From Amyelois transitella (taxonomy: Eukaryota > Arthropoda > Insecta > Lepidoptera > Pyralidae): a stretch of 64,000 nucleotides of DNA. Shown here piece by piece: positions 48,184 through 64,000 of the stretch (positions are counted from its first letter, which is position 1; each line of letters begins with the position of its first letter). The notes beneath the pieces were generated by a model that saw only the letters and a program-made list of their open reading frames with translations, was not told the DNA's origin and made no database searches. A program made the position numbers and the translations under genes. The stretch is taken from NCBI RefSeq assembly GCF_032362555.1, contig NC_083509.1, forward strand, positions 806,001-870,000, in the 5' to 3' direction.

Positions 48184-51009
48184 ATGTTCAAGATACCTGG
48201 TTGGGGCGATGATGTTCCTAATACTAATATTCAATTCGGCAAAACTACTAAAGTATGTTTCTTTACTTATTCAGATTTAGACTTGTACAATATTTATATG
48301 TATTAAAGTATTCCATTTCCTAAAATTGAAAAATTTGGCTATTAATTTGTTTGGTAATCTTAAGATTAAAACAGGAAAAAAAATAACCTCAAAAGATTTT
48401 GAACCATTGGCAAAAAAAATGATAATACCACACTTATTTACAGAAAAAGAAGAAAAATGGAGGTGTTTCGGAGACAGGTGCCAAGCACGTGAGTCCTCAA
48501 AAGACTAAACGACAAATGAATGACCAAACCAAGCCTTTAATTTCTAATGGAAACAGTATAAGACCGAATAACAAAAAGAAGAAACGAAAAGCAAAACCCG
48601 TTGTGTCCACTATTAATTCAGATATCCCAACATTTAAACCCGGGCAATTTGTACTGAACCCAAATAAAAGAAAACTTGAGAATGATTTCGTAAGTAATGT
48701 TGATGATTCTTTACCTAAAAGCAGTAAGAAGAAAAAACGAAAGAAATCCAGTAATAGCACAGTCAATACAAATGACACCAAAGTAGTTGAGAGTAATAAA
48801 AATGTAAAAACAGAAGGTAATAAAGAAATAGGAATTATACTTAATTCTAAAAAGGAAAAGATAAAGAAGATGTTAGCTCTAAGCAATAGAAATCCAATTG
48901 ACGGCAGCAGTAACAGTAACAATTTGAGACAAAGGATGCTTGAAAAGTTAAAAGGTATTATTATTTATTGTTTACAGCTTTAAAAATAAAAGTTAAATTA
49001 TTCAACAAAAGCTTCCGAAAGGAACTAAGCTATTAACTTTGCATATTGATTTACAGGAATAATGGATTGATTTTTGTGTTATAGCGGCCCAATTTAGATA
49101 TTTAAATGAGAAGTTGTACACTTCATCTGGAGCAGAAGCCAAGCAGCTGTTCCAGAACGACCCGGAAGCCTTCCAGACTTACCACCAAGGGTACCAACAA
49201 CAGCTCAAGAAGTGGCCTGTCAATCCGTTGGACTTGATCGTAAAGAGGATTATGAAGATGTATGTATTGGAAGATTTTTGCTTAATAGTTGATTTTAACA
49301 AGTCATTTCATGACTAAGAGATGAATTGAATCTCAATTCTTTCATTAAGCCAAATAGCTGAGGGAGCCTATCAGTCTTTTCAAGACCGTTGGCTCTGTCT
49401 ACCCCTCAAGGGATATAGACGTGACCACATGTATGTATGTATGTATGAGATGAATTGAAGGGATAGTAGGGGCTAGGCTGCATTTTGTAGTAGTAAGTCT
49501 GAAAATACAGACATTAATCATGAGGCTCTTTTTACAAGGTTTAATTTCATCTCATAGTTATACTTGCAAATTATACATACATACTTATAATTATGTCTAC
49601 ATCCCTTGGTGGCGTCTGAAAAAAACCACATTCAGATTGAGATTCAAATAGTGAAAGGTTACCAGCCAGCCCCTAGCCTAAGAGAAGGAATTTATTAGAC
49701 TATGCCTTATTTGCCTTTTACGAAATCCATGGGAAAAAGATGGAGTAGTCCTATACTTACTATCTAGAATTTGGCATACAAATCTTAACTTTTGATGTCA
49801 TACATTACCATGGAATATTTTTATAAAATTTCTAAGCTATCCACAACGACTACCTGAAGTATTTAATTTTGCACAAATAAAGCCTCTGTTTTACACAGGC
49901 CCAAGACCCACACAATCGCGGACTTGGGCTGCGGTGAAGCGGCACTCTCAAAGCGAGTGCCTCACACCGTCCGTTCATTTGACCTGGTGGCCGCTGCCCC
50001 CGGAGTGGAAGTGTGCGACATGGCCCACACACCGTTGTTGAGTGAATCCATGGATGTTGCGGTGTATTGCTTGGCTTTGATGGGCACAGACCTTGCGCAG
50101 TACTTGGTGGAAGCTAATAGGATTTTGAAGGCTGGGTAAGTTTATCAAATCTTTTATTTGATGAATTTAACCAAGCCATTGATTGATTAAATCAATATAT
50201 GATAAGTTGTAACTTGCATGCGATTTTCATATGCTGGAATAATGATGAGTTGTAAATTATAGTCTTTGTATTATTCTAATGTAACATACATTCATACATG
50301 CATATGGTCACGTCTATATCCCTTGCAGGGTAGACAAAACCAACAGTCTTGAAAAGACTGAACAGACAGCTAAACGTGGCCAACGTTTAGCTATTTGGCT
50401 TAGTGATAGAATTGAGATTCAAATAGTGACAGGTTGTTAGCCCATCGCCTTAAAAAGAATCCCAAGTTTGTAAGCCTATCCCTTGGTCGCCTTTTACGAC
50501 ATCCATGGGAAAGAGATGAAGTGGTCCTATAACCACGCGGCACTGCCGGGAACCACACGGCATTCTAATGTTTATATTATAGTAATAATTAATATTATAT
50601 AAAGTCAATATCCTATTTATTGTTACAGGGGTTATAGTTATATATCGTTATTCAATTGCATAATTAGTTTTTCAATAAAAGGGTAGGTACCAAAATTACT
50701 CATAAAGCAGATTTATATGGTAACTATAACTTGTGACTTCACTATAATGTCATTAATTTCTTCAGATCAGTTGTAAATGTCTTTCTTTTTGTCAACAGCG
50801 GCATTCTTTTAATTGCGGAAGTCGAGAGTCGTTTCGATAAAGTGGAGTCGTTCACTGACGCCGTCCAACGCCTGGGCTTCAAGCTGAAGACCCTGGACAA
50901 TCACCAGGTTTTCGTGTTCATGGAGTTTGCAAAGGTCACTCACGCGCCGGCCAAGAAGTCCAAACTGCCGGACGTGACGCTCAAACCTTGTTTGTATAAG
51001 AGGCGGTGA
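48184..51009 (+). CDS. RRP8: Ribosomal RNA-processing protein 8 (SAM-dependent rRNA adenine-N1 methyltransferase)
   Basis: Exons: 48184-48252, 48444-48954, 49085-49259, 49899-50135, 50799-51009; 400 codons plus stop with consistent phases. Begins MFKIPGWGDDVPNT. Residues about 24-190 are Lys-rich and low complexity (KKKKRKK clusters), as expected of a nucleolar targeting tail. The catalytic domain starts near AAQFRYLNEKLYTSSGAEA and includes QQLKKWPVNPLDLIV, SAM motif I ADLGCGE (259-265), CDMAHTPL, DVAVYCLALMGT, EANRILKAGG and the family-typical end LKPCLYKRR. The known enzyme makes m1A in large-subunit rRNA in the nucleolus; the human form (nucleomethylin) is also in a silencing complex. The second exon starts after TTATTTACAG; an open frame at 48326-48508 read across that site is a shadow. 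Tail-to-tail with HELQ, 1 kb apart. Confidence 0.95.
49327..49446 (+). mobile_element. Family A, 3' half, in RRP8 intron 3
   Basis: TGAATCTCAATTCTTTCATT to four TATG units; GAGATGAATTGAA occurs just before and just after, a likely target-site duplication. Confidence 0.85.
49574..49758 (-). mobile_element. Family A, old, in RRP8 intron 3
   Basis: Hairpin region deleted; head ends at TAGTCCTATACTTAC. Confidence 0.65.
50290..50572 (-). mobile_element. Family A, full length with duplicated head, in RRP8 intron 4
   Basis: CCACGCGGCACTGCCGGGAACC shows two partial heads (given here split: CCACGCGGCAC, then TGCCGGGAACC); the GAACGTGGCC block is also partly doubled near 50365-50395. Confidence 0.82.
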
Positions 51010-52016: not shown

Positions 52017-55000
52017 TTAAGATAGTACACTGAGATCTTCCATCACTTCTTCCGCTTCGGCGCGAAGATTTTCAACTTTTTCTATTAACATCATCTGTGA
52101 ATTGACAAAACATATTGCTTAACACATTATTCTAGTCAAATTTTAAAGTCTAGCCCACTAGTCCCAATGAGTTGACAACTGAGACAAATTCGTTAGTGGC
52201 ATTTGTCCCATGGGACTGGGACAGAAACGTCTCGCTTTTTACCGAATTTTACAAAACAGATAAAACTGGTTCAGAAAATTTATCTAATGGTTGTCTGATG
52301 TTTAATCTAATGTTTTTATTTTATGTATTTTAATGTCTTTATTTATGAAAATAAGATCTTTGTTCGATTTTAAGACATTACTTTAATAAAAAAAAATTAC
52401 TACTATACTATTTTTCTACATACTCTAGCAGCACTGATGAGGTGGCTGGCCGCAGTTCTCGATAAATGGGAGACAGACGAACACAAATCGTCTGCGTTCG
52501 CCTTTGCCAAGTCTTCAATACGTTTGTAGCCAGCTCGCAACAGTTGCATCGCTCTAGCCTGTGGATTTATATAGAATAGAATAGAATAGATTTATTTTCA
52601 AAATTGGATACAAGGTATCACTTATTGACGTCACATAACTTAAATCTAATTATAACTACTACCGCTTCCAAAGCGCATGTGTAGAAGAAGCGGCGCGGCG
52701 GAACAAACTACACTGCAGCATTTTCATCGGACGTCAATTTACAAATATACATAGATGTCTTAAATCTAAATCGTGGACGAATGCACATTGTCTACATTAA
52801 ATTATGTCAATACGAATGTTTCGTCAAATAAAATAAAATATGTACATACTGTACCAATTATGTCAAGATCATGTCAAAAATACACAAGCATTTAAGAGGC
52901 CATTATGTCAAGCTCGGGCCACACGTGTTTATCATTAATATAATCCTCCTATATATTTACTAGAGGCCGCCCGCGACTTCGTCCGCGTCGAATCAATCCC
53001 GCGGGAACTCCGGGATAAAGAGTAGCCTATATGTTATTCTGGGTCTTCAGCTACCTACATACCAAATTTCATCGTAATCGGTTCAGTAGTTTTTCCGTGA
53101 AAGAGTAACAAACATCCATACTGACACACTCACAAACTTTCGCATTTATAATATTAGTAGGATATATGTCACCGGAAAATAACAAGAACCGCAAGTTTAT
53201 AAATTTCCTAGGAAGTTTATAAACCGTGCCGTGTGGTTCCCGACACCAGTACAAAAAAGAATAGAACCACTCCATCTCTTTCCCATGGATGTCGAAAAAA
53301 GGTGACTTAGGGATAGACTTACAAACTTGGGATTCTTTTTTTAGGCAATTGGCTAGCATCCTGTCACTGTTTGAATCCCAATTATATCATCAAGCCAAAC
53401 AGTTGAACGTGGCCTATCTGTCTTTTAAAGACTGTTGGCTTCGTCTACCCTGCAAAGTATAAAGGAGTAACTATTAAATGTAAAGTACCTTCCTGACGGC
53501 GGGCAGCTCCATCAGCGCGATCAGCTCGGGCTGCCACGGCTGCAGGCGCGGCGCCAGCTCCGCCAGCAGCGCGCGCCACCAGCACAGCGCCGGCAGCGCG
53601 CCGCACAGGCGGACCGCGCTGTTGCAGAGCGACAGCGCGCCGCTCAGGAGCGACTGCACCGCGCCGCGAGATATGTTGTATCTGACAGACAACGAAGTTT
53701 CAAAAGCAGTTTCAAACAGCGCGCCGCACAGGCGGACCGCGCTGTTACAGAGCGACAGCGCGCCGCTCAGGAGCGACTGCACCGCGCCGCGAGATATGTT
53801 GTATCTGACAGACAACGAAGTTTCAAAAGCAGTTTCAAACAGCGCGCCGCACAGGCGGACCGCGCTGTTACAGAGCGACAGCGCGCCGCTCAGGAGCGAC
53901 TGCACCGCGCCGCGAGATATGTTGTATCTGACAGACAACGAAGTTTCAAAAGCAGTTTCAAACAGCGCGCCGCACAGGCGGACCGCGCTGTTACAGAGCG
54001 ACAGCGCGCCGCTCAGGAGCGACTGCACCGCGCCGCGAGATATGTTGTATCTGACAGACAACGAAGTTTCAAAAGCAGTTTCAAACAGCGCGCCGCACAG
54101 GCGGACCGCGCTGTTACAGAGCGACAGCGCGCCGCTCAGGAGCGACTGCACCGCGCCGCGAGATATGTTGTATCTGACAGACAACGAAGTTTCAAAAGCA
54201 GTTTCAAACAGCGCGCCGCACAGGCGGACCGCGCTGTTACAGAGCGACAGCGCGCCGCTCAGGAGCGACTGCACCGCGCCGCGAGATATGTTGTATCTGA
54301 CAGACAACGAAGTTTCAAAAGCAGTTTCAAACAGCGCGCCGCACAGGCGGACCGCGCTGTTACAGAGCGACAGCGCGCCGCTCAGGAGCGACTGCACCGC
54401 GCCGCGAGATATGTTGTATCTGACAGACAACGAAGTTTCAAAAGCAGTTTCAAACAGCGCGCCGCACAGGCGGACCGCGCTGTTACAGAGCGACAGCGCG
54501 CCGCTCAGGAGCGACTGCACCGCGCCGCGAGATATGTTGTATCTGACAGACAACGAAGTTTCAAAAGCAGTTTCAAACAGCGCGCCGCACAGGCGGACCG
54601 CGCTGTTACAGAGCGACAGCGCGCCGCTCAGGAGCGACTGCACCGCGCCGCGAGATATGTTGTATCTGACAGACAACGAAGTTTCAAAAGCAGTTTCAAA
54701 CAGCGCGCCGCACAGGCGGACCGCGCTGTTACAGAGCGACAGCGCGCCGCTCAGGAGCGACTGCACCGCGCCGCGAGATATGTTGTATCTGACAGACAAC
54801 GAAGTTTCAAAAGCAGTTTCAAACAGCGCGCCGCACAGGCGGACCGCGCTGTTACAGAGCGACAGCGCGCCGCTCAGGAGCGACTGCACCGCGCCGCGAG
54901 ATATGTTGTATCTGACAGACAACGAAGTTTCAAAAGCAGTTTCAAACAGCGCGCCGCACAGGCGGACCGCGCTGTTACAGAGCGACAGCGCGCCGCTCAG

Positions 55001-58000
55001 GAGCGACTGCACCGCGCCGCGAGATATGTTGTATCTGACAGACAACGAAGTTTCAAAAGCAGTTTCAAACAGCGCGCCGCACAGGCGGACCGCGCTGTTA
55101 CAGAGCGACAGCGCGCCGCTCAGGAGCGACTGCACCGCGCCGCGAGATATGTTGTATCTGACAGACAACGAAGTTTCAAAAGCAGTTTCAAACAGCGCGC
55201 CGCACAGGCGGACCGCGCTGTTACAGAGCGACAGCGCGCCGCTCAGGAGCGACTGCACCGCGCCGCGAGATATGTTGTATCTGACAGACAACGAAGTTTC
55301 AAAAGCAGTTTCAAACAGCGCGCCGCACAGGCGGACCGCGCTGTTACAGAGCGACAGCGCGCCGCTCAGGAGCGACTGCACCGCGCCGCGAGATATGTTG
55401 TATCTGACAGACAACGAAGTTTCAAAAGCAGTTTCAAACAGCGCGCCGCACAGGCGGACCGCGCTGTTACAGAGCGACAGCGCGCCGCTCAGGAGCGACT
55501 GCACCGCGCCGCGAGATATGTTGTATCTGACAGACAACGAAGTTTCAAAAGCAGTTTCAAACAGCGCGCCGCACAGGCGGACCGCGCTGTTACAGAGCGA
55601 CAGCGCGCCGCTCAGGAGCGACTGCACCGCGCCGCGAGATATGTTGTATCTGACAGACAACGAAGTTTCAAAAGCAGTTTCAAACAGCGCGCCGCACAGG
55701 CGGACCGCGCTGTTACAGAGCGACAGCGCGCTGCTCAGGAGCGACTGCACCGCGCCGCGCGATATGTTGTATCTGACAGACAACGAAAAGTTTCAAATGT
55801 TCAATTTGAACCAGTACATACTGAGATTAGCGCGTTCAAACAAACAAACTCTTCAGCTTTATAATATACATACATACATACATATGGTCACGTCTATATC
55901 CCTTGCGGGGTAGACAGAGCCAACAGTCTTGAAAAGACTGAATGGGCACGTACAGCTATTTGGCTTAACGATAGAATTGAGATTCAACTAGTGACAGGTT
56001 GCTAGCCCATCGCCTAAAAAAGAATCCCAAGTTTGTAAGCCTATCCCTTAGTCGCCTTTTACGACATCCATGGGAAAGATTTTGAGTGGTCCTATTCTTT
56101 TTTGTATTGGTGCCAGGAGCCACACGACACATCTTAATAATATAAGTATAGAAACTTACTTATCAGCGACTACATGTGAAGGCACCTGATTCAAGAGATC
56201 ACGCAGCATCAGAGCCAAGTAGAAACGGCGCAGCACCAACTCGGAAACGTTCTGAAGGGAAATATTTTTTTTTTTTACTATACCACGATGACGGTGAAAT
56301 GGTTCTGTTAATTCAAACTACATTTACATATATTCATAGGTATCTGGTTCATATCCGGTTCGAAGGACCAATTAATATAACTCTGCACTCAATCTCTAGT
56401 GGACAGATACTGAAGTTTTGAGCCAGTATCCTGACAGAGATCAAAGTCCTCCTACTACTACTAAACCTATTTATACCCAACTCCAAAAAAGATGGATTCT
56501 CAATCGGCCCGTATTATAATGTGCATGGAACTTAAAAAATCACATAAATATAACATTTTATCAAAAAAGTTGTGAAACTACATACATACATATAGTCACG
56601 TCTATCTACCTTGCGAGGTTGTCAGAGCCAACAGCCTGAAGAAGACTGAACGTTCTACTGTAAGGCTTCACGATGGAATTAAGATTCAATTAGTGACAAG
56701 TTGCTAGCCCATCGTCTACAAGAGTAATCTCAAGTTTATAGGCCAATCCCTTACTTACTTACCTCTCTAAGTGTACCCCTAGACCACAGAAGGAATCTTC
56801 ATTTCAAATTTCTACAGCAGTTTTGGCTATGCGTTGTCTATCATTTATTTATTCCGTAACGTATAAAAAAAAGTGCCGTGTGGTTCCCGGCACCATTACA
56901 AAAAAGCATAGGACCACTCCATCTCTTTCCCATGGATGTCGTAAAAGGCGACTAGGGGATAGGTTTATAAACTTAGGATTCCTCTTTTAGGCGATGGGCT
57001 AGCAACCTGTCACTATTTGAATCTCAGTTCTATCATTAAGCCAAATAGCTGAACGTGGCCATTCAGTCTTTTCAAGACTGTTGGCTCTGTCTACCCCGCA
57101 AGGGATATAGACGTGACCATATGTATGTATGTATAAAAACAGAGAGAGAAGAAACATATCAACTCACAGTAATGGGTTTCCCGGTCATCATTCTGACTGC
57201 ATTCATCTCTGTAATGCCTAATGTCTTGGCCGTTTGCAGTCCTTCCTCGTCCAAGTTGCAGTACTGAAATATTAATATAATTTACATATTTGCTTATCTT
57301 TATATTCTTTAGTGATGCTTGATTACAAGGATTTAAAAATACATACATATAATTACGTCTATATCCCTTGCGGGGTAGATAGACTTGACAGTCTAGAAAA
57401 AACTGATAGGCCGCATTCAACTTTTTAGCTTAATGTTAGAATTGAGATTCAAATAGTAACAGGTTGCTAGCCCATCGCCTTAATTAAGAATCCCAAGTTT
57501 ATAAGCCTATCCTTTAGTCACTTTTTATAACACATCCACGGGAAACAAGTGGAATGACCCTATTATTTTTTTATTTATATATAACTATACACTTTGTATA
57601 ACTATACACTGTGCCGTGTGGTTCACGGCACCAATACAAAAAAAGAATAGGACCGCTCCATCTCTTTCCCATGGATGTCGCAAAAGGCGACTAAGGGATA
57701 GGCTTGCAAACTTGGGATCCCTTTTAGGCGATGGGCTAGCAACCTGTCACTATTTGAATCTCAATTCTATCATTTTCAAGACTGTTGGCTCTGTCTACCC
57801 CGCAAGGGATATAGACGTGAACGTATGCATGCATAACTATACACACGGATTTCTCAAATCCACGGACCTGAAAACAATTTGTCTTGGGAAACTGCCTGGG
57901 CGTTTCTTATCTCTAACTCAAGGTTCGAAGCACTTACCAGCGAGTAGTAGTGCCTGTAGTCGGGGCTGACGGGCGCGTCGTGCGGAGTCAGCACGAACAG

Positions 58001-61000
58001 CAGGTGCAGGCTGCCGAGCAACACCACGCCCCGGGAGGCCGCCTGCAGCTCCTCCACCAGCTGCTTGGCTACTGGCAGCTCTAAACCTCCTGGATAATGT
58101 AAAAAAAAAAAAAAAATTAATATAATTAATTGTGCCGTGTGGTTCCCGGCACCAATAAAAAGAAGAATAGGACCACTCCATCTCTTTCCCATGGACGTCG
58201 TAAAAGGCGACTAAGGGATAGGCTTACAAACTTGGGATTCTTTTTTTAGGCGACAGGCTAGCAACCTGTCACTATTTGAATCTCAATTATATCATTAAAC
58301 CAAATAGCTGAATGTGGCCTTTCAGTCTTTTCAAGACTGTTGGCTCTGTCTACCCCGTAAGGGATATAGACGTGATGATATGTATGTATGTATTATTAAT
58401 TAATTAGATATTTAAAAAAATTAACTACGAACCTCTCGAAAATCACTTAAAAAATGTCAACCGGTAACAAACTGCACTGCAGCATTTTCTTCAATAAAGC
58501 GTCACGACTATGAGAAATGAAAGAGGTACAGATTCCAAATTCAAATGTTTAATTTTTTTTTAACTTATGGCAAGATATTCGAAATACGAGTCACTAGGTA
58601 TACAAAGTAGGTAGATCTATTCGGAAGGCGCCTAATAGATTTGCATTCAGGGAGCAAGTCCACGATCTTCTTTTTGACCAGTAGATTTCCTTAAACTTTA
58701 CACAATCATCCAATGTATGTAGTATATGTATGTTTATTTTATATGGAGTATATATATATATATATATAGTCATACTTATGTTTGTAATATATTATATGCA
58801 AGTGTATTAAGTAACCTATTATTATTTATATTTATATAATTTTTTTTTTTACCGTTATCGCACTACCCGTACTTCCATCTCAGTTTGGTCCAAAGGTTCG
58901 ACTGGCAGAGAATGCCTTGTGGCATTAAGTCCACCTGTTGTACATTTTACGTGCATGAAGTTTAAATAAATAAATAAATAAATAAATTACAATTTAAGGG
59001 AGATAGTATTCTAAATTCAAACGATTTTTATTTCTGACGAAATAAGACTTACATTTATAGCCAGTCTCATTGCTCAAAATATAAATCACTCGTTGGAGCA
59101 ATTTAGATTAGGTATGGACAGATTCCAAATTTAAATAAAAATAGTTTTTTTTTTTATTATCAGACATGTACCTATATCAAACGCTTAAATTGAGCATCCT
59201 TTGATGAATGAATGAAAATGGGAAGATTGAATGAATGAACGGCCACTGTGGCGCAGCGGTAGTGCGCTTGTCTGTGTCACCGGAGGTCCCGGGTTCGAAT
59301 CCCGGCCAGGGCATGATGAGAAACGAACTTTCTCTGATTGGCCTGGGTCTTGGATGTTTATCTATATAAGTATTTATTATGAAATATAGTATCGTTGAGT
59401 TAGTAACTCGTAACACAAGTCTCGAACTTACTTCGAGGCTAACCCAATTTGTGTTATTTGTCCCGTATATATTTATTTATTTATGAAAAGTTACCTATAA
59501 TGGCAGCTCGTCCCAGTTCGCTGACGGTGAGCGGCGCGTGCTCGCTAGCCGGCGACACTTCCAGCGCGCCGCATTGCACGAGAGAGCGGAGGGACGCGTC
59601 GCATTCTTCTTTTATATTTATTTCTGGACTGCGAGATTTAAAATTATTAATTATTATTGGTGTCCATTGCTCAGAAAAATTTAACGCAAATTGTGAAAAA
59701 AAAAAACTTTACATTCGTTTTACACTCATTACATTCGAAGCAGGGGAACCCAACTCGTATTGGATCGATCATGGTTACACATACTCCTCCGAAACGGCTT
59801 GACCGATTCTCATGAAATTTTGTGAGCATATTGAGTAGGTCTGAGAATCGGCCAACATCTATTTTTCATACCCCTCAGTGTTGTCCACTCTTAACATTAT
59901 TTTTAACTAGAAATAACTTAAAACTTATTCATATGGCTAAACAACGTCTACCGGGACAGCTAATGTAGTTATAAATAAATACGCACTCGAGAGCCAGGAA
60001 GGTGGTGCGCATGAGTTCCTCGGTTTTTAACAAGAAATAACTTAAAAATTATTTTACGGCAAAACAAAGGTTTACCGGGACATCTAATGTAGTTATAAAT
60101 AAATACGCACTCGAGAGCCAAGAAGGTGGTGCGCATGAGTTCTTCGGTTTTTATCAAGAAATAACAAAAATTATTTTACATCAAAACAAAGGTTTACCGG
60201 GACAGCTAGTTTAATTATAAATACGCACTCGAGAGCCAGGAAGGTGGTGCGCATGAGTTCTTCGGTTTTTAACAAGAAATTACTTAAAAATATTTTACGG
60301 CAACACAAAGGTTTACCGGGACATCTAATGTAGTTATAAATAAATACGCACTCGAGAGCCAGGAAGGTGGTGGCCATCAGCTCCTCGGCCTGGGCCCTGG
60401 TAAAACTTATTCATATGGCAAAACAAAGGTCTACCGGGACATCTAATGTAGTTATAAATAAATACGCACTCGAGAGCCAGGAAGGTGGTGGCCATCAGCT
60501 CCTCGGCCTTGGCCCTGGTAAAACTTATTCATATGGCAAAACAACGTCTACCGGGACATCTAGTTTAATTATAAATACGCACTCGAGGGCCAGGAAGGTG
60601 GTGGCCATCAGCTCCTCGGCCTTGGCCCTGGTAAAACTTATTCATATGGCAAAACAACGTCTACCGGGACATCTAGTTTAATTATAAATACGCACTCGAG
60701 GGCCAGGAAGGTGGTGGCCATCAGCTCCTCGGCCTTGGCCCTGGTAAAACTTATTCATATGGCAAAACAACGTCTACCGGGACATCTAGTTTAATTATAA
60801 ATACGCACTCGAGGGCCAGGAAGGTGGTGGCCATCAGCTCCTCGGCCTTGGCCCTGGTAAAACTTATTCATATGGCAAAACAACGTCTACCGGGACATCT
60901 AGTTTAATTATAAATACGCACTCGAGGGCCAGGAAGGTGGTGGCCATCAGCTCCTCGGCCTTGGCCCTGGTAAAACTTATTCATATGGCAAAACAACGTC

Positions 61001-63522
61001 TACCGGGACATCTAGTTTAATTATAAATACGTACTCGAGAGCCAGGAAGGTGGTGGCCATCAGTTCCTCGGCCTCAGCCCTGGTGCCGGCCAGCCGCAGC
61101 GCCGCCGCGCTCAGCAGCAGCGCGGGCGGCCGCAGCCGGCTGCGGGCGGCGCGCAGCGGCCCGGCGAGGACGGTGCGCAGCGCGGGCCACTCGGACGCGC
61201 TGCAGATTATTATGCTCTCACCTGTATCATATATATTCTGTTCAATTTGTTTCCTTGTTAGACTTAGAAGGAAAAATTATTGGAAAGAGAGGATAAAATG
61301 GTTATTACACATACATACATACATATGGTCACGTCTATATCCCTTGCGGGGTAGACAGGGCCAATAGTCTTGCAAAGACTGACAGGCCACGTTCAACTAT
61401 TTGGCTTAATGATAGAATTGAAATTCAAATGATGACCGGTTGCTAGCCCATCGCCCGAAAAAATAATCCCAAGTCTGTAAGCCTATCCCTTAGTCGCATC
61501 AATGGGAAAGAGATGGAGTGGCCCTATTCTTTTTTGTATCAGTGCCGGGAACCACACGGCAGTCCTTTAATTTATTGATAATTCTATCCCTACAACTTCC
61601 ATGAAAACGTTTTAGTAGTCCCATAATTGTTTTTTAATCAGTACCTCGAACAACACAACAATAAATTCTACAAAAATGATCAAGAGCTTCACATCACCCG
61701 CATCAGAGACGCCTGCGCGGCCCGCGCGGCCCGCCATCTGGCGGTAGGCGGCCAGCGACAGCGGCTCGCGGCCCACGCGCGGCGCGCGCACGATCACACG
61801 CCGCGCGGGTAGGTTCACGCCCGCCGCCAGTGTGGAAGTGCAGCACAGCACTGACACCACTCCGGACCTCACGAGAAGTAATTTAAAGTTCGATCAATGC
61901 GTAGAACAGAACAATGACAGCCTTTATTAGAAACTAGCTGTGCCCGCGACTTTGTCCGTGTGGAATAGTTTTTTTTTTCATATTTTTCCTTTATTCCTTC
62001 GCTGCTGATGGTTGCAGCGTGATGTTATATAGTCTAAAGCCTTACTCGATAAATGATACTTTTAACACAAAAAGAATTTTTCAATTCGAACCAGTAGTTC
62101 CTGAGATTAGCGCGTTCAAACAAACAAACTCTTCAGCTTTATAATATTAGTATAGATAGTTTTACAAAGTTTAAAAGAGCTTGGGTATAGCTATAGCCAC
62201 GAGATCCAGCAACTAGTCGCCAGAGGGTAGTAATAAAAGTAATTTTTGTGCAATTTCTGATACCTAAGTCAAATATGCGAAGTAGACGTTGCAACTTACT
62301 GGGCAAAATATATACCTATCTAAGTTTGAACCCATTCACCTGAACTTTAATTACCTGAAAGCAGTCTCCAGCAGCGCCCTCTCATCGGCCGCCAGCCCCG
62401 CGTGGTGGAACCCCACTCCGAACCTCACAGCGCGGGTCAGAGCCGAACTAGCGCCCTCACCCACTAACGCGGCCTCTAACGCTTGCCGCTCTACAGTGCG
62501 GTGAGACGTCATCTCTCTAAAAGTTAGAACAATTAACATGACAACCATAAATCAACATACACATACATAAAATCACGCCTCTTTCCCGGAGGGGTAGGCA
62601 GAGACTACCTCTTTCCACTTGCCACGATCTCTGCATATTTCCTTCGCTTCATCCACATTCATAACTCTCTAAAATTCATAAATCAACATCATTATAATTA
62701 ACTGTTGTTCTAATTGAATTTTAACACGATTCAGGAATAGGCATTTCAGATAACTGCGTGGAGTTAATGACGTACAATTTTTATTGCTACTATGTAAATT
62801 TCTATGCAATAAAGATATTACAAACAAACCAACAAACACCAGCCAGACAAGGAAACTTGATCAATTTCGATCATGGTCACACAAATCTCTTCCTCATGGA
62901 TGTCGTAAAAGGCGACTAAGGGATAGGCTTATAAACTTGGGATTCTTTTTTTAGGCGACTGGTTAGCAACCTGTCACTATTTGAATCTCAATTCTTTCAT
63001 TAAGCCAAACAGCTGAACGTGGCCTATCAGTCTTTTTAAGACTGTTGGCTCTGTCTACCCCGCAAGGGATATAGGCGTGATTATACATACATAATGTTAC
63101 ACAAATCGCGAAAGGAAAGTAGCCTCTAAAGTTTTTATCAGAACAAAAAGATGACAACATCATCAATATAATTTGGTTAGTTCTTCTTCTTGATCGCGTT
63201 CTTCATAACTAAAGGTCAAACCTCATATACATATTCGACAATTATTAAGCGATTTCGACAATTATTAAGCGATATGTAGTATCCTATAATAATTTTGAAT
63301 TTGAATATAAGGCATTTCTTGGTGTATCTAAGGAGTTTAGCTGTTAATGAGTGAAGGAGACAGCAATACAGCTAACCTCCTCTGCAGCTTGCATAGCAAG
63401 GAGGCGACGTTCTCGCAGTTCCGCTTGGTGGGGCAGAACACCAGGCAGGACGCCTGAGGCACCACCTCCGACACTAGGCCTCCCAGCCAGTCGGGGTCTA
63501 ACGCTGTAGCTGCTGGCACATA
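52017..63522 (-). CDS. HELQ: HELQ (POLQ-like Ski2-type DNA helicase), 3' part, eleven exons
   Basis: Exons in coding order: 63522-63377, 62516-62355, 61867-61698, 61221-61035, 59628-59495, 58089-57938, 57263-57168, 56251-56160, 53681-53489 (or up to 55772), 52558-52424, 52094-52017. With the short form this is 514 aa; phases all join. Earlier exons, with Walker A and DEAH motifs, lie beyond the window. Visible: [15 protein letters not shown] (helicase domain 2 start), [14 protein letters not shown], motif [13 protein letters not shown], motif [14 protein letters not shown], winged-helix and ratchet regions ([30 protein letters not shown]), [12 protein letters not shown], and a helix-hairpin-helix-like end ([19 protein letters not shown]). 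Known role: 3'-5' helicase in homologous recombination and crosslink repair; the fly orthologue is mus301/spn-C. Two tandem arrays overlap its exon ends, at 53.6-55.8 and 59.9-61.1 kb. The end of exon 61221-61035 is set at GTACGT, which alone keeps phase. Confidence 0.93.
52575..52835 (+). repeat. Family E, longest copy, in the HELQ 3' intron
   Basis: GAATAGAATAGATTTATTTT to ATTGTCTACATTAAATTATG; starts 17 bp from HELQ exon 52558-52424. Confidence 0.78.
52968..53162 (+). repeat. Family D-type repeat, variant
   Basis: GCCCGCGACTTCGTCCGCGT to TTTATAATATTAGTAGGATA, with a body CCAAATTTCATCGTAATCGG typical of a related subfamily. Confidence 0.7.
53228..53473 (+). mobile_element. Family A, nearly full
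   Basis: GTGCCGTGTGGTTCCCGACAC to GGAGTAACTATTAAATG; the tail is lost and the end lies 16 bp from the HELQ exon donor at 53489. Confidence 0.82.
53593..55790. repeat. 123-bp minisatellite, 18 copies, across a HELQ 3' splice site and exon start
   Basis: Exact period 123 bp; the 3' splice site recurs at 53681 + 123n up to 55772. Read on the minus strand, each unit holds about 36 nt of intron end (CTTCGTTGTCTGTCAG) and 87 nt of HELQ exon ([12 protein letters not shown] to VRLCGAL). Internal units look identical; only the terminal ones differ. The leftmost has TGC for TGT in SLCNS; the rightmost has SSAL for SGAL and CGCGCGAT for CGCGAGAT. As 123 = 3 x 41 and no stop occurs, the array is open on the HELQ strand and, by chance, on the other strand. 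Human HELQ runs from this exon start to the PALCWW equivalent with no insertion, so copies beyond the first are extra. Confidence 0.97.
55815..55866 (+). repeat. Family D 3' fragment next to the 123-bp array
   Basis: GAGATTAGCGCGTTCAAACA to TTATAATATA. The sequence up to the array (CAATTTGAACCAGTA) resembles the preceding part of family D, so this HELQ intron end may be repeat-derived. Confidence 0.65.
55867..56130 (-). mobile_element. Family A, full length
   Basis: Four-unit tail joined directly to the family D fragment; ends 30 bp from HELQ exon 56251-56160. Confidence 0.88.
56580..56760 (-). mobile_element. Family A, 3' two thirds, old
   Basis: ACATACATACATATAGTCAC to GGCCAATCCCTTAC. Confidence 0.68.
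56874..57134 (+). mobile_element. Family A, full length, near-consensus
   Basis: Ends 34 bp from the donor of HELQ exon 57263-57168. Confidence 0.9.
57341..57574 (-). mobile_element. Family A, headless
   Basis: ACATACATATAATTACG to CCCTATTATTTTTTT; hairpin altered (AGTCTAGAAAAAACTG). Confidence 0.78.
57611..57833 (+). mobile_element. Family A with 36-bp deletion
   Basis: Passes from CTATCATT to TTCAAGACTG, losing the TGAACGTGGCC block; AACTATACAC flanks both sides (57600s and 57835), a likely target-site duplication. Confidence 0.85.
58131..58393 (+). mobile_element. Family A, full length, near-consensus
   Basis: Starts 42 bp from HELQ exon 58089-57938; AATTAAT-like sequence on both sides. 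Confidence 0.9.
58749..58768. repeat. (TA)n microsatellite
   Basis: Ten TA units. Confidence 0.93.
58860..58986 (+). repeat. Retroposon 3' end with (AAAT)n tail
   Basis: TCCAAAGGTTCGACTGGCAG, GCATTAAGTCCACC and TGTACATTTT, then TAAATAAATAAATA. The layout resembles family F (CCAAAGGTTGACTGGAAG, AAGTCCGCC), so it is a distant relative. Confidence 0.6.
59238..59478 (+). mobile_element. Family B SINE in a HELQ intron
   Basis: TGTGGCGCAGCGGTAGTGCG and GGTTCGAATCCCGGCC; ends about 17 bp from HELQ exon 59628-59495 with an ATTTATTTATTTA tail. Confidence 0.88.
59905..61085. repeat. ~113-bp tandem array, 10 copies, across a HELQ 5' splice site
   Basis: The marker ACTCGAG recurs at 59985, 60109, 60227, 60350, 60468, 60581, 60694, 60807, 60920 and 61033. 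Periods are exactly 113 for the right half and 118-124 in the older left half. On the minus strand each unit repeats the end of HELQ exon 61221-61035 ([11 protein letters not shown]) and the start of its intron (GTGCGTATTTATAA). In the six units from 60350 to 60920, intron sequence runs into TTTTACCAG before GGCC, giving a 3' splice site that the three leftmost units lack (they read GTTAAAAACCGAGGAACTC). Confidence 0.95.
61308..61562 (-). mobile_element. Family A, nearly full
   Basis: ACATACATACATACATATGG to GGGAACCACACGGCA; loses the TTTTACGACATCC block. Confidence 0.85.
61935..62156 (+). repeat. Family D, nearly full, in a HELQ intron
   Basis: GTGCCCGCGACTTTGTCCGT to ATATTAGTATAGATAG. Confidence 0.8.
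62560..62672 (-). mobile_element. Family C LINE 3' end, short
   Basis: ACATACATAAAATCACGCC to ATTCATAACTCTCT. AAATCAACAT-like bases flank both sides (ATAAATCAACATAC before, ATAAATCAACATCA after): target-site duplication. Confidence 0.87.
62795..62838 (+). repeat. Retroposon tail fragment
   Basis: TTTCTATGCAATAAAGATAT then ACAAACAAAC; the same end is at 27175 and, inverted, at 32310. Confidence 0.5.
62876..63088 (+). mobile_element. Family A, headless
   Basis: GGTCACACAAATCTCTTCCTC to TTATACATACATAATG; the tail is altered. Confidence 0.8.
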
Positions 63523-63542
63523 CTGAAACCATAAATTTAAAT

Positions 63543-63799
63543 CTACATACATATGATCACGTCTATATCCCTAGCGGGCTAGACAGAGCCACCAGTCTTG
63601 AAAAGACTGTAAGGCCACGTTCAGCTGTTCGGCTTAATGATAGAATTGAGATTCAAATAGTGACAGGTTGCTAGCCCATCGCTTAAAGGAAGAATCCCAA
63701 GTTTATAAACCAATCACTTTGTCGCCTTTTACGACATCCGTGGGGTAGAGATGGAGTAGACCTATTATTTTTTCTATTGGTGCCGGAAACCACACGGCA
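63543..63799 (-). mobile_element. Family A, full length
   Basis: Tail begins 21 bp from the acceptor of HELQ exon 63522-63377; head CCGGAAACCACACGGCA. Confidence 0.87.
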
Positions 63800-64000
63800 A
63801 AACTTTCGTAAACGTTGCTAAAAATGAAGATAATATTTCTCTCTCTCCCAATTACAAAGGCAACAGACCTTTTCTAAATGCTGAAGTTCAACGCCAATAA
63901 ATTATTATACAAAATATGTGATACTTTTTATACCAGTTCACAAAAGATTTGGCACACTTGAAGCTGTCAACTGTTATCTTAAACAATTTTTCAGTTTAGT

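Follow-up and report, generated by a model that had tools for sequence, protein, structure and literature searches.

Coding repeats such as those of MUC1 and LPA KIV-2 are confined to one exon or comprise complete exons; they are in frame, and the length of the protein changes with copy number. Competition between identical splice sites, for its part, has been studied with few duplicated sites. The tandem array described here, in the helicase gene HELQ of the moth Amyelois transitella, touches on both subjects. It lies in a window of 64,000 nucleotides (assembly GCF_032362555.1, contig NC_083509.1, positions 806,001 to 870,000), the whole stretch of DNA that was analysed, from whose first letter all coordinates below are counted. 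If included in the mRNA, the array would resemble the MUC1 and LPA repeats in frame and in its effect on protein length; it differs from them in that each unit brings along a splice acceptor of intronic sequence. It would thus act like a set of competing acceptors, and as a coding variable number tandem repeat (VNTR) if the array is included.

This array, termed array 1, occupies 53594..55797 on the minus strand, as do all HELQ features given below. It consists of 18 copies of a 123-bp unit, in which 36 nt of intron and junction sequence with the acceptor TCTGTCAG are followed by 87 nt of exon 14. Tandem Repeats Finder reports a period of 123, 17.9 copies, 99% matches and 0% indels, and a script located 18 TCTGTCAG acceptors whose first exon bases run from 55772 down to 53681 in steps of 123 nt. 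Acceptor and exon start are thus present in every one of the 18 units, which is what a tandem duplication across an intron-exon boundary produces. Units 2-17 are all identical (16 of 16), amounting to 1,968 bp without a difference, and unit 18 departs from them at a single position (+58, T to C). In an ungapped comparison, unit 1 departs from them at 2 exon positions and at 17 of the 36 intron positions; the 36 nt upstream of the exon are identical for 17 of the 18 acceptors. The exon part corresponds to 29 codons, and the whole unit reads as 41 open residues. Every acceptor (18 of 18) gives a full-length HELQ frame, with +0 to +697 residues in 41-residue steps. Array 1 is not a product of chance. 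It has the form of a coding minisatellite (head-to-tail units, a length divisible by three, an open frame), its status as exon being predicted. The sequence-only reading, which had placed the array at 53593-55790, is borne out to within a few bases of the Tandem Repeats Finder call. Its other claims of HELQ identity, 18 acceptors, 697 added residues, preservation of frame by any acceptor and identical internal units agree with the gene model, the domains, the frame tests and the unit comparison. We conclude that array 1 is real in the assembly, is in frame, and is either recent or homogenised.

The gene extends from its stop codon at 52017, which follows the C-terminal region, beyond the end of the window; exons 16 to 6 lie within it (52017..64000) and exons 5-1 past its end. 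The 16 exons join into 962 codons with a sole stop at the end of the frame, all 15 introns are GT-AG, and no exon (0 of 16) shows a frameshift, a stop or a loss of GT-AG. The 962-residue protein results from exon 14 spliced at the last acceptor (53489..53681, 193 nt); with the first acceptor, 55772, the model extends to 1659 residues without an internal stop. The preceding exon 13 (56160..56251, 92 nt) ends in the donor TAA-GTAAGT, with the boundary after TAA. Pfam matches above cut-off are PF00270 (DEAD), PF00271 (Helicase_C), PF20470 and PF21099 (HTH_61 and POLQ_helical among them), and matches below the cut-off of 27 are PF14520 (HHH_5, helix-hairpin-helix, 24.5 bits) and PF21280 (archaeal helicase domain 4, 19.4 bits); the Pfam scan of this protein returned no polymerase family. 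The protein thus has the combination that characterizes Hel308-type HELQ, namely DEAD, Helicase_C, a POLQ/Hel308-type helical domain and a C-terminal helix-hairpin-helix. Among solved structures, its best relatives are Hel308 of archaeal type and the helicase domains of POLQ (4.6e-100 for the latter); none of the 29 sequences listed with E values of at most 1e-20 is a chain named HELQ. A distinct frame on another contig, C8, matches POLQ (5a9f) at 5.7e-185, compared with 4.6e-100 for the present gene. This POLQ-like helicase region (C8:8915429-8916034) forms a single open frame of 733 residues in the same genome. Because the gene in the window ends without a polymerase domain, and because a separate POLQ-like locus exists on C8, we take it as HELQ. 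In genome queries no second HELQ-like locus was found: all 20 matches to the C-terminal query fell within this gene, and the five matches to the helicase query comprised four in this gene and the POLQ-like frame. On the outcome of these two queries, a second intact HELQ elsewhere was rejected. When the last-acceptor protein is aligned to POLQ chain 5a9f, the junction is ungapped, and a 3-residue gap occurs some 25-30 residues further on. Downstream, a convergent gene (49063-51009, plus strand) shows Methyltransf_8 (PF05148) matches in three exons and is presumably RRP8-like.

How much the open frame tells about coding use deserves caution. When the 36-nt part was shuffled 20,000 times, 43% of the results remained open, a share that falls to about 14% if the period must also be a multiple of three, for which the odds are one in three. 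Intron tails of HELQ are open in the needed frame in 7 of 15 cases, the tail of array 1 included, and two plus-strand frames (797 and 809 residues, 53471-55913) are likewise open across the array, likely as a by-product of repeating an open unit. The openness of array 1 is therefore only mildly improbable by chance, and we set it aside as weak evidence of coding use.

The acceptors of array 1 are not equivalent. They were scored with a weight matrix built on the 14 other acceptors of the same gene, which were themselves scored by leave-one-out. The first acceptor (region 55749..55772, first exon base 55772, the start of the long form with its 697 additional residues) scores 3.5, compared with 1.8 for the other acceptors of the array and with 0.3 to 12.0 for the 14 real ones. 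Among the first, second and last acceptors, the second standing for units 3-17, only the first has a yTnAy branch consensus within 90 nt, namely CTAAT with its A at -55; 13 of the 14 other real HELQ acceptors have such a motif within that distance. High-copy interspersed repeats occupy 55795..56152 (unstranded), and this CTAAT falls in one that has 1,192 first-look candidates in the genome, 40 of which were scored. As the repeat ends 22-28 nt short of the first acceptor, intron 13 up to the array is nearly all interspersed repeat. Use of the first acceptor would leave an intron of 387 nt and an exon of 2,284 nt, compared with 2,478 nt and 193 nt for the last. According to PMC9225289, splicing prefers the upstream one of near-equal competing 3' sites; the preference is strong if introns are the units defined and much smaller under exon definition. 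By this rule, 55772 is expected to be the default, and the score, branch site and position of the first acceptor together favour the inclusion of all units. Tentatively, then, and with slightly less than even confidence, we read 55772 as the source of the main product. The spliceosome would mainly pick this site, the only one with a consensus branch site and the nearest to the donor; the main mRNA would hold all 18 units, and the inner acceptors, each of which keeps the frame, would be used less often. The product would be a HELQ whose helical region (domain 4) carries 17 additional repeats of 41 residues, each a helix with a linker, and the length of the protein would track the copy number of the allele.

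Several points weigh against this reading. The array acceptors stand at the weak end of the real range, 1.8 exceeding one and 3.5 exceeding two of the 14 real acceptors, and the matrix derives from only these 14 sites of one gene. The missing consensus branch site of the other acceptors is not decisive, since real exon 15 has no yTnAy in 90 nt, and exons 4, 6 and 12 have theirs only within 10 nt. An AG occurs 6 nt past the CTAAT branch A, and the distance of 55 nt from this A to the acceptor exceeds the usual one. Helicase function could suffer from an insert of 697 residues in the helical domain. Finally, as passages of PMC9225289 indicate, exon definition favours the acceptor closest to the downstream donor, and the exon here would measure 2,284 nt.

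The insertion point falls between VADK and YNIS, inside the POLQ_helical match (residues 725-857). Each additional unit would repeat one helix of that domain and add a 12-residue linker. An AlphaFold2 model of five repeats and the rest of the exon, computed with no alignment, shows 34-residue helices and 7-residue loops, with a mean predicted local distance difference test score (pLDDT) of 61.5 and a predicted template modelling score (pTM) of 0.55. The modelled repeats are compatible with a run of helices, and no more than that. A fold search was set aside, the model being too weak at these scores, and Pfam matches of the five-repeat stretch, apart from those to POLQ_helical and to the archaeal helicase domain, seem to be chance hits brought about by the repetition. 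A Gly to Ser change in unit 1 was considered as a sign of lost constraint and was dropped, for the POLQ chain has Ser there too.

Five kilobases upstream of array 1 within HELQ lies a second array (array 2, 59919..61084), on which the sequence-only reading was silent and where a like duplication copied the donor rather than the acceptor. Its ten copies, spaced 113-124 bp apart, comprise the end of exon 9, the donor and part of an interspersed repeat. Exon 9 (61035..61221) has its own donor, CGA-GTACGT at 61034 with the boundary after CGA, which scores 6.8; the nine copies read CGA-GTGCGT and score 5.9. One donor of ten, the native one, keeps the HELQ frame whole; with any of the nine copies the frame meets a stop at residue 689. 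In six units, TTTTACCAG stands ahead of a potential 45-nt micro-exon (60966-60922, 60853-60809, 60740-60696, 60627-60583, 60514-60470 and 60396-60352), with phase 2 in and out. When the first one to six of these were added in order, the frame was kept every time, at 15 residues each. Their acceptors score 0.1, slightly less than the lowest value among the 14 other real ones (0.3); given this score, we think that the micro-exons would rarely be used, though one real HELQ acceptor is almost as weak. The four copies nearest the native one show no difference across 100 bp, and farther copies are 79-94% alike, whether compared with one another or with the near ones. This divergence suggests that array 2 is older or less homogenised. 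At its far end, a high-copy interspersed repeat (59782..59982, unstranded; 2,395 first-look candidates, 40 scored), partly contained in the units, adjoins the last donor copy at 59986.

Other outcomes at array 1 have to be set beside the preferred use of 55772. Were the last acceptor, 53681, nearly always used, the 17 upstream units would leave with the intron and HELQ would be normal. The resulting 193-nt exon would be ordinary and is preferred by exon definition (as described in passages of PMC9225289), the POLQ alignment is ungapped at the junction, and the remaining gene is intact, as a normal protein would predict. This outcome appears rather unlikely to us all the same, in that the last acceptor scores 1.8 like the inner ones, faces 17 upstream competitors that are equal or better, and has no consensus branch site within 90 nt. 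It is somewhat less likely still that, as the sequence-only reading proposed, splicing is spread at similar rates over several of the 18 acceptors and yields HELQ isoforms in 41-residue steps. Such a ladder would be in keeping with the frame kept by all 18 and with the identity of 17 of them across the 36 nt before the exon; on the other hand, the first acceptor is unlike the others in score and branch site, and one strong early choice would suppress the rungs. Short reads are ill suited to telling these outcomes apart, since aligners can produce spurious junctions between repeats (PMC10632439).

Compatible with any of these is the view that inclusion of array 1, or the extra donors of array 2, renders HELQ largely non-functional, in this individual or in its lineage, and that the gene is in early decay. 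Nine of the ten array 2 donors lead to the stop at residue 689 and score only slightly less than the native one (5.9 versus 6.8), and helq-1 mutant worms appear normal in growth and development, as stated in passages of PMC8654963. We consider this improbable, given that frameshifts, stops and lost GT-AG sites are absent from the 16 exons and that the native donor is the first and top-scoring of the ten and would be favoured under exon definition. Least of all do we expect a misassembly that created the array or inflated its copy number. The 16 identical units can be checked only with reads; yet the assembly, of 327 Mb, has 33 contigs, with C5 reaching 12.8 Mb, the edge units are distinct from the internal units, and the gene also contains array 2, which has diverged (its units being 79-100% alike).

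With regard to origin, unit 1 retains the native intron end and unit 18 the native exon end, matching the prediction for a tandem duplication, and both arrays are placed between an exon edge and the end of a high-copy interspersed repeat. At the inner junctions of array 1, TTTGAAACTGC precedes TTTTGAAACTTCG, and TTTGAAAC is found a single time at the native intron end, a comparison that covers one event; TTTGAAACT occurs twice at the junction versus once at the native intron end. The 12-residue linker proposed by the sequence-only reading is borne out in the translated unit; its derivation from plain intron sequence holds only in part, the extra TTTGAAACTGC beside TTTTGAAACTTCG being a probable junction insertion. 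The doubled TTTGAAACT resembles the templated insertions of polymerase-theta end joining. A GC-rich quasi-palindrome (AACAGCGCG..CCGC / GCGGCGCGCTGTT) has its foot at the edge of the duplication, and on both strands the unit has a better fold than most of 200 shuffles, with z of -2.5 and -2.0 and with 3 and 5 shuffles as good. We envisage that error-prone end joining, which left an insertion of TTTGAAACT that looks templated, first produced one tandem duplication over the exon 14 acceptor, and that the array then expanded and was recently homogenised. Two observations count against this scenario: the folding of the array 2 unit is ordinary (z 0.5 and -0.1), and the end-joining origin is read from one junction sequence only. 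With a mutation rate of 2.9e-9 per site and generation, as in a butterfly, and assuming no homogenisation, the identity of units 2-17 would limit their age to about half a million generations; with homogenisation, it is uninformative about age.

As a rough control for how common such arrays are, 20 stretches of contig C5 (200 kb in total, genes unannotated) were searched for periods of at least 30 with at least 3 copies. Arrays were found in four stretches: three belong to a 154-bp AT-rich family and one has a 40-bp unit with stops in six frames. An exon edge was recognised in none of the four, in a sample in which genes are unannotated. One of the 154-bp stretches also shows a 682-bp period in about 8 copies.

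In worms that lack HELQ-1, tandem duplications accumulate that span about 100 bp to 10 kb, show microhomology and in some cases contain templated insertions (PMC8654963). The presence of two such arrays in HELQ itself may be a coincidence. One could imagine that tandem duplication has remodelled two splice junctions of the very gene whose helicase suppresses it, that copy-number alleles encode HELQ proteins differing in length and activity, and that weaker alleles raise duplication genome-wide as a self-reinforcing mutator; we hold this speculation to be very unlikely.

A literature search, mostly beyond subscription papers, showed among the papers listed neither an insect HELQ array nor an acceptor-spanning array of such kind and size. 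As far as the passages of the respective papers describe them, the closest systems share individual features with the HELQ arrays. In potato RdRp (PMC4974935), the duplicated segment likewise consists of an intron end, a 3' splice site and an exon start, and a second tandem duplication is present in the same gene, as in HELQ; it differs in having only two copies, compared with 18 in array 1, and in that a cryptic exonic GTAAG makes a new intron. A corresponding arrangement, with each array 1 unit as its own exon by way of a cryptic intron, was considered and rejected: the ten GTs per unit score at most 2.0 as donors, 2.0 still being within the range of real HELQ donors (-0.2 to 10.3), and the phase is wrong for three of four tested GTs, the fourth (+76) leaving a multiple of three and making a 48-nt intron. 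The ABCA7 intron-18 VNTR (PMC5954066) is like array 2 in that a unit starting with a donor lies beside the exon, that one unit can be retained, and that length goes with a change in splicing. Its 25-bp unit is out of frame on single-unit retention, it repeats donors rather than acceptors, and exon sequence in the unit is not described in those passages. NAGNAG tandem acceptors (PMC3250501) offer a similar frame-preserving choice between neighbours, with steps of 3 nt and two sites, compared with 123 nt and 18 sites in array 1. The duplications of helq-1 mutant worms (PMC8654963) agree in size range and seemingly in junctions with microhomology and, at times, templated insertions, and differ in being new and found in mutants, whereas array 1 is an expanded array inside the HELQ gene itself.

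As a series provided by nature, the 18 acceptors of one intron, near-identical and neutral to the frame, lend themselves to the study of splice-site competition, and so do the ten donors of the partner array; if only the last acceptor is used, array 1 is a curiosity. Moreover, arrays of this kind often change in length, and the presence of one in HELQ, whose counterpart in worms is reported to prevent tandem duplications, would make an effect of HELQ dosage on such duplications testable in nature. Boundary duplications and splice-site VNTRs are already known; an in-frame array of 18 acceptors is, in our opinion, a new variation on them.

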